A stretch of 42,362 nt of DNA. Origin: an uncultured Clostridia bacterium. GTDB lineage: Bacteria > Bacillota > Clostridia > UBA1381. The notes beneath the pieces were generated by a model, which saw nothing but the letters and a program-made list of their open reading frames with translations, did no database searches and was not told the DNA's origin. This document shows, piece by piece, positions 5,908 to 11,571 of the stretch (its first letter is position 1; every line of letters starts with the position of its first letter). The stretch is from NCBI GenBank assembly GCA_947628155.1, contig CANQYQ010000004.1:1-42362 (forward strand). The letters run 5' to 3'. The position numbers and the translations under genes are program-made.

Positions 5908-7986
5908 TTAAACTCTGTAAAGCAGATCCGTATACGTCGGGAACGGCCAATATTCCTCGGAAACGAGGGTTTCAAGCTCATCGGCCGTCGCGCGGAGCTT
6001 GGCCATAGCCGGTATTGCCTTATCCCTGTAATATCTCGCGAGCTTTAACGCATCGCCGGCGGGAACGCTGTCGGAAACCTTCTGCAGCGCGGCGATATTC
6101 GCGATAAGCGATTCGGTAAGCTTTGAAATTCTTGTGGCAAGAGCTTTTTCCTTCGGCACTTTTATACCAATTGCTTCTTTGGACGAAATGCTGTCCACGA
6201 GGAATTTCGCATATTCAAGACATGCTGGGAGTATTTCCTGATTCGCCATCTGGAGCATTGTAAGAACCTCGATGTTAAGCGCCTTATAATAATCCTCAAG
6301 AAGAATCTCCGTTCTTGTAACGGTCTCCTCCTTTGTAAATACGCCGTGCTTCTCAAACAGCTTAACTGATTTTGGCTCCGCGAAATAGGGGATAGCGTCG
6401 GGAGTAGTCTTAAGATTGGGCAGACCTCTTCTTTCGGCCTCCTTGATCCATTCATCGCTGTAGCCATTGCCGTTAAAGATGATTCTCTTATGCTTCTTGA
6501 ATACCTTGATCGCAAGGTTCATCGCGTCGTGCGCGATATCCTGCGTGCCGTCAAGCTCATCCGCGAACTGTGAAAGCGATTCCGCGACTATTGTGTTTAT
6601 AATTATGTTAATGCCGGAAATCGACTGCGATGAGCCGGGCATTCTGAACTCGAACCGGTTTCCGGTAAACGCGAACGGTGAAGTTCTATTTCTGTCGGTC
6701 GCATCACGGTTAAGCGTAGGAAGCGAAGCAACACCGGTATCAAGAATACCCATAGCCTCTTCCTTCGTGCGCTTGCCCTCTACAAGCTGATTTACGACAT
6801 TTTCGAGCTGATCTCCGAGGTACATCGAAACGATCGCCGGAGGCGCTTCGTTCGCACCGAGACGATGGTCGTTGCCGGCGGTCGCCACAGACAGCCTTAA
6901 AAGCTCCGCATAATCGTCAACGGCCTTTATAACAGCCGCTAAGAACAGCAGGAACTGTACATTATCCTGCGGGTTCCTGCCCGGCTTTAACAGATTCTCG
7001 CCCTCAACCGTTCCCAAAGACCAGTTGTTGTGCTTGCCCGAGCCGTTTATGCCCTCATACGGCTTTTCATTGAGCAGACACCATAATCCATGACGGTTCG
7101 CGACCTTCTTCAAAATCTCCATTGTAAGCTGGTTATGATCGGCCGCGACGTTCGATGTCGAGAATACGGGCGCGACCTCATGCTGAGCCGGAGCGACCTC
7201 GTTATGCTTTGTTTTTGTAAATACACCCAGCTTCCATAATTCCTCGTCGACCTCTTTCATGAACGAGGAAACGCGTTCCTTGATCTGTCCGAAATAGTGA
7301 TCCTCAAGCTCCTGACCCTTTGCCGGCATAGCTCCGAACAAGGTCCTGCCGGTAAGCATAAGATCCTTTCGCATTGAATAAAGCTCCTTGTCAACAAGGA
7401 AATATTCCTGCTCGGGTCCGACATAAGAAACTACCTTTTTTGTGGTTTTTCCGAACAAAGCGAGTACGCGTTTTGCCTCCTTATCGACCGCCGCCATCGA
7501 ACGCAGAAGCGGGGTTTTCTTATCCAGCACCTGTCCCGTGTACGATATAAATGATGTCGGGATGCAAAGCGAGCTGTCCTTTATGAAAGCGTACGAGGTC
7601 GGATCCCATGCCGTATAACCGCGCGCCTCAAATGTCGCGCGCAGACCGCCCGACGGAAAGCTTGACGCGTCCGGCTCACCCATAACGAGGTTCTTACCGG
7701 AGAACTCCATAATTACCGTGCCGTTTTCGTCCGGCTCAATAAATGAATCATGCTTTTCCGCCGTAGTTCCCGTCATCGGCTGAAACCAGTGCGTGTAATG
7801 CGTACAGCCGTTTTCAACCGCCCAATCCTTCATCGCGTTGGCAACGACCTCGGCGACGTTAAGGTCGAGAGGGGTGCCCTCCTGGATTGTCTTTAGCAAA
7901 GATTTGTAAGTAGCCTTCGGCAGTCTCGCTTCCATTGTCGGAAGATTGAATACCTTTGAACCGAAATACTCTGCAACATTAGCCAT
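5908..7986 (-). CDS. glnN: Glutamine synthetase type III (GlnN)
   Basis: This 692-residue protein has the length typical of GSIII, a dodecameric cytosolic enzyme that makes glutamine from glutamate, ammonia and ATP. Recognisable family segments include VAEYFGSKVFN at the N-terminus, the GPEQEYFLVDKELY metal/glutamate segment, HNEVAPAQHEVAPVF, NGSGKHNNWSLGT (ATP/substrate loop), HRLGANEAPPAIVSMYLG and NRTSPFAFTGNRFEFRMPGS. All appear intact. The start ATG has an AGGAGGT RBS. The gene is monocistronic, with a consensus promoter at 8116-8144 and a terminator-like hairpin in the leader at 8048-8083, which suggests control by premature termination. It is convergent with the LRR gene. Confidence 0.95.
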   Translation of the reverse strand: MANVAEYFGSKVFNLPTMEARLPKATYKSLLKTIQEGTPLDLNVAEVVANAMKDWAVENGCTHYTHWFQPMTGTTAEKHDSFIEPDENGTVIMEFSGKNLVMGEPDASSFPSGGLRATFEARGYTAWDPTSYAFIKDSSLCIPTSFISYTGQVLDKKTPLLRSMAAVDKEAKRVLALFGKTTKKVVSYVGPEQEYFLVDKELYSMRKDLMLTGRTLFGAMPAKGQELEDHYFGQIKERVSSFMKEVDEELWKLGVFTKTKHNEVAPAQHEVAPVFSTSNVAADHNQLTMEILKKVANRHGLWCLLNEKPYEGINGSGKHNNWSLGTVEGENLLKPGRNPQDNVQFLLFLAAVIKAVDDYAELLRLSVATAGNDHRLGANEAPPAIVSMYLGDQLENVVNQLVEGKRTKEEAMGILDTGVASLPTLNRDATDRNRTSPFAFTGNRFEFRMPGSSQSISGINIIINTIVAESLSQFADELDGTQDIAHDAMNLAIKVFKKHKRIIFNGNGYSDEWIKEAERRGLPNLKTTPDAIPYFAEPKSVKLFEKHGVFTKEETVTRTEILLEDYYKALNIEVLTMLQMANQEILPACLEYAKFLVDSISSKEAIGIKVPKEKALATRISKLTESLIANIAALQKVSDSVPAGDALKLARYYRDKAIPAMAKLRATADELETLVSEEYWPFPTYTDLLYRV

Positions 7987-8196: not shown

Positions 8197-9411
8197 TTAC
8201 GGTTTTATATGATGCAAATCGCGCGTAAAAAGCGCGGCATACTTTACATTATCGAGCCGCAAAAGCGCGGCGGTAAGCCGTTCGAGTCCGGTCGTACAGC
8301 CGCCGTAGGGCATTATGCCGTATTTGAGCGCGTCAAAATACGCCGTGTATTGCGCCGGATCGATACCCAGCCGCGCCGCTTTTTCAAGCTGCGCCTTATA
8401 ATTATATATATTTTTCGAGCCTGACGATATTTTCCAACCGTTTAAATATATGTCAAATCCCGAGAAATCCTCCGCGTAAAACGGACGTTTGTCAGGCGGG
8501 AAGCCCGTAACGCATACGAAATCCGAGCCGGATCTTTCCTTTTCCCGAGCGCACAGCCTTTTAATATCCGTGGGGTCAAGGTCAGGCTGATTGTCCTTGC
8601 CGAGGATCTTAAGTGCGTCCCCAAACCCATATATGGGAATTTCGTCAGGTATATTGATGTTGCTTCCGAATTTCGCGGCAGCTTTTAAAAAGCTCGTTAA
8701 CATGCCGATAACGCTATCGATCGTTTTAATATAACCGAGCTGAAAGCTCAGGCTCGTAAATTCGGCCAAATGGCGTGACGAATTATATTTTTTCGCCAAA
8801 AACGACGGCGATACGCAATATGTTCTGTCAAGCGACGCCGTTGCCGCGGTCATATAGAGCTGCGGCGAATACGGCAAATACGCTTTTTTTCCATAGTAGT
8901 CGATCTCAAACGACGGCTTTTCGGAATATTCCGATATCATCGGCGTTACAATACGTGTAAAATCATTCGCGCGCATTAGATCCTCGAAAGCACCGAGAAT
9001 TTGCGACTGGATCTTATAAACCGCGCTTATTTGCGGATGACGCAGAGTAAGCGGCTTATTTTCAATCGTTGTCTCAAGGGAATGATTATATCCGGCGTCC
9101 GATATGCTTATCGGATATGCCGCCGACGGGGAGGACAAAATTTCAAAATCCTCAAGCCGCAGTTCTATCCCGTTGTCGGCCTTTATTTCGGCGGCCGCGC
9201 GGATGTCGGCACGTATAAACATTCCCTCGTCAAGCAATGAAACACTTTTTTCGCACAAGCCGTCCGTGTATACCGTTTTCACAAGCTCACCGCGAAGCGC
9301 AAGATAAACAAAGACCATCTTCCTGCTTCGTTTCAGCCTGTGGACGCGCGCGCTGACCCGCGCCGTATCGCCCGGTTTTAAATCGAGCGGCGCATTATCT
9401 TTAATATCCAT
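8197..9411 (-). CDS. Class II aminoacyl-tRNA synthetase-like protein (AspRS/AsnRS paralogue, probably non-canonical)
   Basis: The 404 residues have the architecture of archaeal-type AspRS/AsnRS. An OB-fold lies at residues ~15-95 and a class II core at ~125-404, with SPQLYM (182-187), a motif 2-like segment SPSFLAKKYNSSRHLAEF (201-218) and motif 3 GCTTGLERL (371-379). Key positions differ from working enzymes. The motif 2 FRAE is FLAK (Leu205, Lys207), the lysine after SPQLY is Met, and the EI-x-SG-x-QR-x-H segment reads KISSGSKNIYNY (K327, loss of QR and H). The motif 3 Glu-Arg is kept. Known: the motif 2 arginine contacts ATP. Inferred: this is not a normal aspartyl- or asparaginyl-tRNA synthetase, and may be a paralogue with another amino-acid-activating or ligand-binding role. 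It sits 14 bp downstream of the VanW gene, on the same strand. Confidence 0.7.
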   Translation of the reverse strand: MDIKDNAPLDLKPGDTARVSARVHRLKRSRKMVFVYLALRGELVKTVYTDGLCEKSVSLLDEGMFIRADIRAAAEIKADNGIELRLEDFEILSSPSAAYPISISDAGYNHSLETTIENKPLTLRHPQISAVYKIQSQILGAFEDLMRANDFTRIVTPMISEYSEKPSFEIDYYGKKAYLPYSPQLYMTAATASLDRTYCVSPSFLAKKYNSSRHLAEFTSLSFQLGYIKTIDSVIGMLTSFLKAAAKFGSNINIPDEIPIYGFGDALKILGKDNQPDLDPTDIKRLCAREKERSGSDFVCVTGFPPDKRPFYAEDFSGFDIYLNGWKISSGSKNIYNYKAQLEKAARLGIDPAQYTAYFDALKYGIMPYGGCTTGLERLTAALLRLDNVKYAALFTRDLHHIKP

Positions 9412-9425
9412 ATTGAATCACCCTA

Positions 9426-11042
9426 TCAGCCGTGCGGACGGTAAAAGCTTGAGCCGAGCGGATCCGTGCTTATAAGCTCGTCGTTTGCGTAGACGTAACG
9501 CGTAGATTCAACCACGGTGTTATCGCCGGAGGTTGATACGCTGTGCTTTAGCTCAACCCTCCTTGGCGGGTCCCATTCGGTGCCGATAATATCGACGTAA
9601 ATTGTGCGTCCGTCTGTATGGCTTAAAATTTTGACGGGATAATCGGTACTGTTTTTGAACTGAAAATCCACGCCGCTGTCGGCGACGGTCGCGTCCTGGC
9701 CGAGCGGAACATATCCGACACTCATCATATGGCATTCGCGGTGCACAACGTTCAAATCAGCGTACAGTACAGCCGAATACAGCGTTGTACTTACCTGACA
9801 CGTGCCGCCGCCTATGCCTTGCACCGACTCTCCGTTAACGTATTCGGCAGCGGTATGGAATCCGTTTTCAACCGTTCTTTGTCCGACAGTTCCGTTAAAT
9901 GAAAACGTATCGCCCGGCGCAATTACCGTACCGTTTATAAGCTCCGACGCGCGGGCGACATTCGCGGCGCGGTTTGAGCTTGAACCGCCGTAGCTTGTCG
10001 AGTATGAACCGAGCGTATCGGCAAACAGCTTCTCCTGAAGCTGCTCACGTGTGACCTCGGGATCTGTGGTATAATACGGAATCTTCACCGGTTCTCCGCC
10101 CTCGGTAACGTTAAGTATATACGCGCCCGCCTCAGCCTCATCAATGCGGCGTCCGACGACCTCCGGTTCTATTGTTACATCGTTGCCGTTTATTATGTAT
10201 TTCGCGTCCGACGGCTCGCAGCATACCGCGTTATTAAGCTTTTCAAGCGTCATTTCCCCGGGCGCCGAAGGCGCAAGCGGCACGGAAATACCGGTATATT
10301 TATTGCGCGAAAGCGCGTCAAGAACCAGTCCCAGCGCTTCAGTATACGATTCCGGCGCGTTCACGTTATATCCGGTACGCCCGGGATATACGTCGGCCGT
10401 TTTATCGGATTTGTTAATACCCACGCCGTGCTCCTTAAATTCCCCGTACAGCTGTAGTCCAAATTCGTTGATTTTCTCTATCAGGCGCTCATCGTCAATA
10501 TCCGCTGCCGGTTTAATATTATGGCGCTTAAACATACATATAGTATTAATCAGTCCGTCCGCTAAGGCATTGCTGCTCTTGCCGTAATCAAAGGCGCGCC
10601 TTGCGGTATTCTCAATATTCGCCGCCATACCGATATCGCTGCCGCGGAATGTAAATTCACTGCCGCCGCATTCGAGCGTGATATCTATGTCGTTCATCAT
10701 ATAATCCGACTTTATTGACGCAAGCGCTTCATCATATGTCATGCCGCCCAGACTTATCCCGTCAAGATACACATTCCTCATAACAGTATCGGACGGCCGC
10801 GCCGCGATACCCTTAATATACGCGCCGGCAGCGAATACGGCCGCCGCGCCGAACACAGCAAACACCGCCCGGCGTACTGTTTTGGCGGAACATGTTTTTT
10901 TGTGTGATAAATCCGGTCGTCCGAGTGTTTTATCCGTGCTCTCGGCTGCGTTTAAAGCGCCGTCCGATTCCGGCTCTGCCGAAGAGCAATCATCGGCCGT
11001 GCCGGCGTTGTTACGGATAAATCTCCTTTTCTTGTCAGACAT
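9426..11042 (-). CDS. VanW-family cell-envelope protein
   Basis: About 538 residues from the ATG at 11042 (RBS AAAAGGAGAG); the frame is open ten codons further upstream, but without an RBS. A basic, polar N-terminal tail (~1-55) precedes one membrane segment (AVFAVFGAAAVFAAGAYI). Two putative peptidoglycan-binding-type repeats (~90-310) follow, and then the VanW domain with NRAANVARASELINGTVIAP, GDTFSFNGTVGQRT, GGGTCQVSTTLYSAVL and HMMSVGYVPLGQDATV. VanW proteins are widespread in Firmicutes, and the family's exact biochemical role is unknown. No vanHAX ligase genes are nearby, so no glycopeptide resistance is implied. The protein is likely anchored in the membrane with its bulk outside. Confidence 0.85.
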   Translation of the reverse strand: MSDKKRRFIRNNAGTADDCSSAEPESDGALNAAESTDKTLGRPDLSHKKTCSAKTVRRAVFAVFGAAAVFAAGAYIKGIAARPSDTVMRNVYLDGISLGGMTYDEALASIKSDYMMNDIDITLECGGSEFTFRGSDIGMAANIENTARRAFDYGKSSNALADGLINTICMFKRHNIKPAADIDDERLIEKINEFGLQLYGEFKEHGVGINKSDKTADVYPGRTGYNVNAPESYTEALGLVLDALSRNKYTGISVPLAPSAPGEMTLEKLNNAVCCEPSDAKYIINGNDVTIEPEVVGRRIDEAEAGAYILNVTEGGEPVKIPYYTTDPEVTREQLQEKLFADTLGSYSTSYGGSSSNRAANVARASELINGTVIAPGDTFSFNGTVGQRTVENGFHTAAEYVNGESVQGIGGGTCQVSTTLYSAVLYADLNVVHRECHMMSVGYVPLGQDATVADSGVDFQFKNSTDYPVKILSHTDGRTIYVDIIGTEWDPPRRVELKHSVSTSGDNTVVESTRYVYANDELISTDPLGSSFYRPHG

Positions 11043-11055
11043 AACCGCTCTCCTT

Positions 11056-11571
11056 TTATACAAACCTCTCAAAATCCTTCAGATAGTCGGTATATTCATT
11101 CATGAACGCCTTAAAACGTTCACTTTTCATCAGAAGAGTAAATGTACGATACAGATTTTTCACAAACCTGCGGTCATAATCATCCATAAGAAGTCCGCGC
11201 GAAAGCGGGCAGACCGATTTTGCGCGCGGGTCAACCGTGATTTCAAGCCTTCCGTTTTTATCAAGCTTCGGTGTAAGCGGAAAGATCCTGCATGAAAGCG
11301 GCCGCTGATATCGGTCACATACGCCGTCGCAGAATAAAATCGGAACGCGGTAATTTTTCCCGTTGTATTTATATGTCATATCGGTTTTATCTATCCTCGC
11401 CCAATCCGGCTCCAGCAGCTTGTATACCTCATATTCGCCGGGGAATAAAAGCATTCCCGCGCTGTCGCCGCCGCAGCACGCTTTTTTGCAAAGCCTGCCG
11501 CAGTCCGTTTTTATGGGCGTAGTCTCGTCGAAAAGTTTATAAAGCTGTAAATATAAGTATGCTGTGTTCAT
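11056..11571 (-). CDS. YkgJ-family cysteine cluster protein
   Basis: 171 residues with the CxxxC...CC (DCGRLCKKACCGG) and later Cys positions (FCDGVC, PLSCRIFPL, SVCPLSR) that define the YkgJ/CxxCxxCC zinc- or iron-cluster family. The PLSCR-IFPL signature is clear. No transmembrane segment or signal peptide is seen, so it is probably cytosolic. The exact function is unknown; some relatives are proposed Fe-S or Zn proteins. It heads a minus-strand group with the VanW and AspRS-like genes (13 and 14 bp spacings), and a promoter lies at 11613-11641. Confidence 0.8.
   Translation of the reverse strand: MNTAYLYLQLYKLFDETTPIKTDCGRLCKKACCGGDSAGMLLFPGEYEVYKLLEPDWARIDKTDMTYKYNGKNYRVPILFCDGVCDRYQRPLSCRIFPLTPKLDKNGRLEITVDPRAKSVCPLSRGLLMDDYDRRFVKNLYRTFTLLMKSERFKAFMNEYTDYLKDFERFV

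Follow-up and report, generated by a model that had tools for sequence, protein, structure and literature searches.

A degenerate archaeal-type aspartyl-tRNA synthetase with a rewritten active-site pocket at an ancestral gatCAB-aspS2 locus in a gut and rumen genus of Clostridia

The gene at positions 8197 to 9411 (minus strand) of the analysed window, a stretch of 42,362 nucleotides from an uncultured Clostridia bacterium of a gut and rumen genus, encodes a degenerate archaeal-type aspartyl-tRNA synthetase (AspRS2) of 404 amino acids, with an OB-fold and a class II catalytic domain. Judging from its residues, the protein has most likely lost the ability to activate an amino acid and to charge tRNA. 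The explanation that we favour, at somewhat better than even odds, is a neofunctionalised pseudo-synthetase, that is, a remnant of AspRS2 that catalyses no reaction but binds a ligand, either a small anion or a nucleotide.

The open reading frame starts with ATG and is intact, and its product matched the Pfam family PF00152 (tRNA-synt_2) with 146 bits (E 1.4e-42). The top profile was the archaeal-type AspRS model NF003483 (NCBIfam), with 253.8 bits against a cut-off of 353, and TIGR00458 gave 171.5 bits against 368.4, so that neither curated AspRS2 cut-off was reached; the canonical AspRS2 of a sister genus (L103) scored 521.7 and 386.9 bits with the same two models. An Rfam search of the window gave no match. 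The first-pass annotation, made from the sequence alone, had asked for a comparison of predicted structures, and the AlphaFold2 model (pLDDT 77.9, pTM 0.68, with the motif-2 loop at residues 205-216 below pLDDT 50) indeed has an AspRS fold with an N-terminal OB-fold and a class II domain. Its best PDB match in Foldseek was AspRS 1b8a (TM 0.78 by query length). Among solved chains, the protein matched the Thermus AspRS2 1n9w.

The residue changes are given below in 1b8a numbering followed by window numbering, and the roles of the residues are those generally known from AspRS structures. By alignment, the flipping loop (residues 160-170; positions 8902-8934) is shortened around E170, and the canonical A-E-G-G is missing. 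In the SPQLYM segment (8851-8868) Gln184 is retained and the substrate lysine K195 is replaced by Met187. Motif 2, FLAKKYNSSRHLAEF...Q (8734-8808), carries R214 to L205, E216 to K207, D231 to S222 and E233 to Q224, and KISSGSKNIYNY (8398-8433) stands in place of EI-x-SGGQRxH, with E361 to K327, G366 to S332, Q367 to K333 and R368 to N334. Motif 3, KYGIMPYGGCTTGLERL (8275-8325), retains R412 as R378 and has P401 to M367 and H403 to Y369. Q192, R222, H223, E226 and R412 (1b8a numbering) remain, including the RH-x-x-E of the motif-2 loop (R222, H223, E226). Apart from Gln184 and the motif-3 arginine, nearly all ATP- and Asp-binding residues are gone: the motif-2 Arg, the Mg-binding Glu and the Asp-binding Lys and Arg of AspRS2 are absent, with L205, K327, M187 and N334 in their places. 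Since the Mg-binding Glu has become Lys and the alpha-phosphate Arg and the Asp-binding Lys and Arg are lost, adenylate formation would be very unlikely.

All the changes named in the first-pass annotation (FRAE of motif 2 to FLAK, the lysine after SPQLY and the E-I-x-SG-x-QR-x-H segment) were present in the alignment, as was the motif 3 Glu-Arg that it described as remaining, within a kept GLER. The loss of catalytic residues that it proposed goes further than it had listed, extending to the flipping loop with E170, D231, E233, P401, H403 and an Arg and a Gln of the OB-fold. Its statement that the OB-fold is retained holds for the fold, which the model places at about residues 14-95 (9127-9372), but not for these two residues, which are near-invariant in canonical copies, lie at the anticodon-binding face of AspRS and are replaced by A38 and K45.

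When compared with the archaeal-type non-discriminating AspRS2 (NF003483/TIGR00458; Thermus 1n9w/3kfu), the window protein is alike in fold, domain order, ancestral locus and motif 3, but lacks the active-site residues, the full flipping loop and an adjacent gatCAB, and scores below the cut-offs. Asparagine synthetase A (AsnA), which activates Asp with ATP, and AS-AR are likewise AspRS-derived proteins that are not synthetases. An enzyme with changed chemistry of the AsnA or EpmA kind, binding an adenylate or acyl phosphate and moving the acid to a new acceptor, would be compatible with the new invariant polar residues K207, Q224, K327, S332 and N334 and with the kept Gln184 and motif-3 Arg. 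AsnA and EpmA, however, retain two features that are lost here, the Arg of motif 2 and an acidic ligand for Mg, and the window protein scored far under the cut-offs of the corresponding models (AsnA 59.7 of 309 and 56 of 368, EpmA 14.3 of 286.9); we therefore regard this reading as improbable. Amino-acid synthesis, which the first-pass annotation had offered as a possible new job, is unlikely in the AsnA form, because such enzymes keep the ATP-binding residues that are missing from the window protein. AsnA also has no anticodon domain (PMC4206432, PMC9437257), whereas the window protein still has its OB-fold but not the residues that bind ATP and Asp. A further comparison is with HisZ, the HisRS-like regulatory subunit of HisG, which has a class II synthetase fold and no adenylation activity (PMC9437257). 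Like HisZ, the window protein has a class II fold kept by selection in an open gene with the catalytic residues lost, and in its case the loss of catalysis is predicted from those residues. HisZ is HisRS-derived with a known partner, whereas the window protein is AspRS-derived and would have changed in situ after the break-up of an operon.

Each of the five genomes sampled from the genus (G000-G004) encodes such a protein. The four other copies are 40-65% identical to that of the window and have the substitutions in common, and K207, Q224, K327, S332, N334 and M367 are invariant among the genus copies. Given that most of the substitutions are common to all five genomes, sequencing error and chance can both be dismissed, and to the question of whether the substitutions are fixed, raised with the first reading of the gene, the answer is largely yes among close homologues. 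A DNA-pattern search for the signature K-I-x-S/T-G-x-K/E-N covered 95 genomes of the order and 391 of the class, and the only matches that were homologues by profile search were the genus's five copies; the remaining matches, which were not, were rejected as chance. A scan of genome contigs gave four loci, every one from this genus. AspRS2 copies read outside the family in a class-wide sample retain the catalytic residues, and no report of such a protein was found in open-access papers.

The gene lies in a conserved run on the minus strand. It is preceded, across a gap of 14 bp, by a gene for a VanW-domain protein (9426-11072), before which stands a gene for a cysteine-cluster protein, named YkgJ-like by eye (11056-11571), at the start of the run. 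On the other side of the altered gene lies one for a 692-aa glutamine synthetase, type III-like by inspection (glnA3; 5908-7986). The order YkgJ-VanW-altered AspRS2-glnA3 was found in the window and in G001, G003 and G004; in G002 the contig ends inside the altered gene and the glnA3 after it is visible. glnA3 flanks the altered gene in every genome sampled from the genus, and it flanks many canonical loci as well. The VanW-domain protein (548 aa) scored 65.8 bits with NF033128, well under the cut-off of 365, and stays together with the cysteine-cluster protein across much of the family.

In most genera of the family the same locus reads YkgJ-VanW-gatC-gatA-gatB-aspS2, often followed by glnA3, and the synthetase is canonical; at the window locus there is no gatCAB and VanW is directly upstream. 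Because the same locus carries gatCAB-AspRS2 in sister genera, the window gene is a positional orthologue of AspRS2, and this origin is well supported. A recent duplicate was considered and rejected, as the gene sits at the family's ancestral aspS2 position; of the first-pass description as an AspRS-like paralogue, the kinship to archaeal-type AspRS stands and the duplicated paralogue is not the best description. In Deinococcus and Thermus an archaeal-type second AspRS works with GatCAB in making Asn on tRNA-Asn (PMC4206432).

The state of the synthetase across the family followed the presence of gatCAB. With gatB directly upstream, R214, E361 and R368 were kept in 37 of 37 AspRS2 copies, and R214 was lost in 10 of the 11 copies without adjacent gatB. 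In ten of these the gene directly upstream is VanW. Among the ten, the G042 copy is canonical, the G046 copy differs over six tabulated residues by R214C alone, and the other eight lack several ligand residues. The remaining copy (G002) lies at a contig end with no gatB in reach and is likewise altered. In genus g9 the erosion at this locus is graded, in the sequence G042, G046, G038. The states of G042 and G046 suggest that loss of gatCAB came before loss of residues. One copy with gatB present and an altered flipping loop (L025, G016) was set aside; its contig is 3.8 kb long and its bin is 8% contaminated. In G068 (L114, 8502-9952) gatA is apparently split into two adjacent frames in an otherwise normal gatCAB-aspS2 locus, which is either a sequencing error or a real break. 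In G049 (97% complete) the locus reads YkgJ-VanW-glnA3 with AspRS2 and gatCAB cleanly gone (L187, G049:C51), and the genome had no GatB match and one extra LysRS-like protein; the function is therefore dispensable somewhere.

In four sister species (G001-G004; L169, L170, L171 and L172) GatB is encoded at another place in the genome, next to a second AspRS of bacterial type, in the order aspS-gatC-gatA-gatB; the G004 copy of this AspRS scored 743 bits with the model for bacterial AspRS. The Gat proteins of this cluster share only about 34-53% identity with their ancestral counterparts (GatB about 43-45%), and given this low identity the cluster was possibly acquired from outside. No AsnRS-like match was obtained in a PF00152 search of G001-G004, including the 99% complete G001, and the indirect route to Asn-tRNA is therefore presumably served by the new aspS-gatCAB pair, whose AspRS would then be non-discriminating. 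The window's own assembly (86% complete) contained one ordinary AspRS on contig C62, which answers the first-pass question of whether a canonical enzyme exists elsewhere in the genome; besides this AspRS and the altered copy, a LysRS-like protein and a single weak match below threshold were present. Neither GatB nor a second AspRS was detected in this assembly, and for this reason the replacement is read from the four sister species.

The presence of GatCAB in these four species bears on whether the altered protein is a structural subunit of an AspRS-GatCAB complex (a transamidosome scaffold) or a heterodimer partner of an active AspRS, and AspRS2 itself belongs to the solved transamidosome 3kfu, which was a Foldseek match. 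However, the gatB of the genus is far from the ancestral one, as given above, and the genus has lost the Arg and Gln of the OB-fold. In addition, GatB was not detected in G034, G038, G033 and G046 of g9, which carry changed copies, and hence such a role is not a general reason for retention. We consider it distinctly unlikely.

Pairwise dN/dS, estimated by a simple method at dS above 1.3, was 0.19 (95% 0.12-0.26) for the window gene against G004 and 0.23 (95% 0.15-0.31) for G003 against G001, compared with 0.05-0.09 for canonical pairs and 0.20-0.22 for altered pairs of g9. When neutral evolution was simulated over half the synonymous distance, the frame stayed open in 0 of 2000 runs and acquired about 16 stops on average. 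The marks of a pseudogene, a disrupted frame or a dN/dS near 1, are absent. These values are relevant to the possibility that the gene is simply decaying, its catalysis having become redundant after gatCAB loss and the frame being on its way to a pseudogene. Canonical copies are two to four times more strongly constrained, the altered copies have long branches, and the graded series in g9 and the clean deletion in G049 are what decay would produce. On the other hand, the frame is open in each of the five genus copies (one of them truncated at a contig end) and in every altered g9 copy that was read, dN/dS is well under 1, and the changed pocket is re-fixed and not variable, which leaves decay with a small probability in our judgement.

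In the genus the pocket belongs to the best-conserved parts of the protein, and a different consensus has become established there: two E-to-K changes, plus R to N, G to S and E to Q. The proportion of columns invariant in the genus was 17/25 in the pocket and 57/310 elsewhere (P=4e-7), and among columns departing from the canonical residue it was 6/12 and 14/147 (P=0.001), where the P values are indicative only, given that the pocket columns were chosen from knowledge of AspRS structures after the alignment had been seen and that the five related sequences are non-independent. The losses were not significantly concentrated on the listed ligand residues among canonical-invariant columns (Fisher's exact test, P=0.34), because many other invariant columns have changed too. 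Re-fixation of the pocket is the stronger signal of the two: after being rewritten, the pocket was kept.

Further altered AspRS2 copies, forming a second set, were found at the same locus (L109-L112 in G038, G033, G039 and G034), with SGGEH as the replacement. The Gln and Arg of the OB-fold are still present in them, except that G039 has Lys in place of Arg, and these copies may for this reason still bind tRNA. The replacements differ between the window's genus (KI-x-SGSKN) and g9 (EI-x-SGGEH), and loss of both the OB-fold Arg and Gln is confined to the window's genus. AspRS2 trees group the altered copies of the two genera (99/94) on very long branches, and the join is doubtful because the branches are so long; monophyly of g9 without the window's genus was not clearly rejected on these data (P=0.065). 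A tree of the VanW and YkgJ proteins separates the two altered groups and rejects one clade of altered loci (AU test, P=4.6e-8). A single origin of all altered copies is thus disfavoured, and given the neighbour-protein tree and the doubtful AspRS2 join, at least two independent erosions is the favoured reading, the pattern of substitutions in g9 being probably the outcome of an erosion of its own. An altered copy could also have been transferred between genera.

In the pseudo-synthetase reading that we favour, the history would have started with an archaeal-type non-discriminating AspRS2 in a gatCAB-aspS2 operon. In the window's genus gatCAB was lost from the locus, with Asn-tRNA synthesis apparently passing to the separate operon of bacterial aspS and gatCAB, and the AspRS2 fold, freed from catalysis, would have been retained and re-selected with a rewritten pocket. 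In this pocket the Mg-ATP-handling acidic residues, as well as the Arg and Lys that bind Asp, have given way to conserved Lys, Gln, Asn and Ser or to Met/Leu, and the residues of the AspRS adenine sandwich (motif-2 aromatic and motif-3 Arg) remain. Together with the new lysines, they would suit a Mg-free nucleotide or another anion, which is our guess at the ligand. The protein may act as a sensor, regulatory subunit or scaffold and is probably co-expressed with the VanW protein; the latter would be our guess at a partner, a candidate by position alone, because the adjacency arose through the loss of gatCAB.

Gene duplication is the usual origin given for synthetase-like proteins that have acquired new functions. 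Proteins of the present kind should not be annotated as Asp-tRNA ligases or counted as a second AspRS. We tentatively suggest, as a minority possibility, that the AspRS2 of this family had a second, non-aminoacylating job that became visible on loss of gatCAB, so that lineages converge on dead but selected copies at the YkgJ-VanW locus. Living species still display the successive steps, from an intact operon with a canonical synthetase, through a canonical synthetase with its partner gone (G042) and loss of the motif-2 Arg (G046), to the full rewrite, and this stepwise series makes it testable what keeps a dead synthetase alive.
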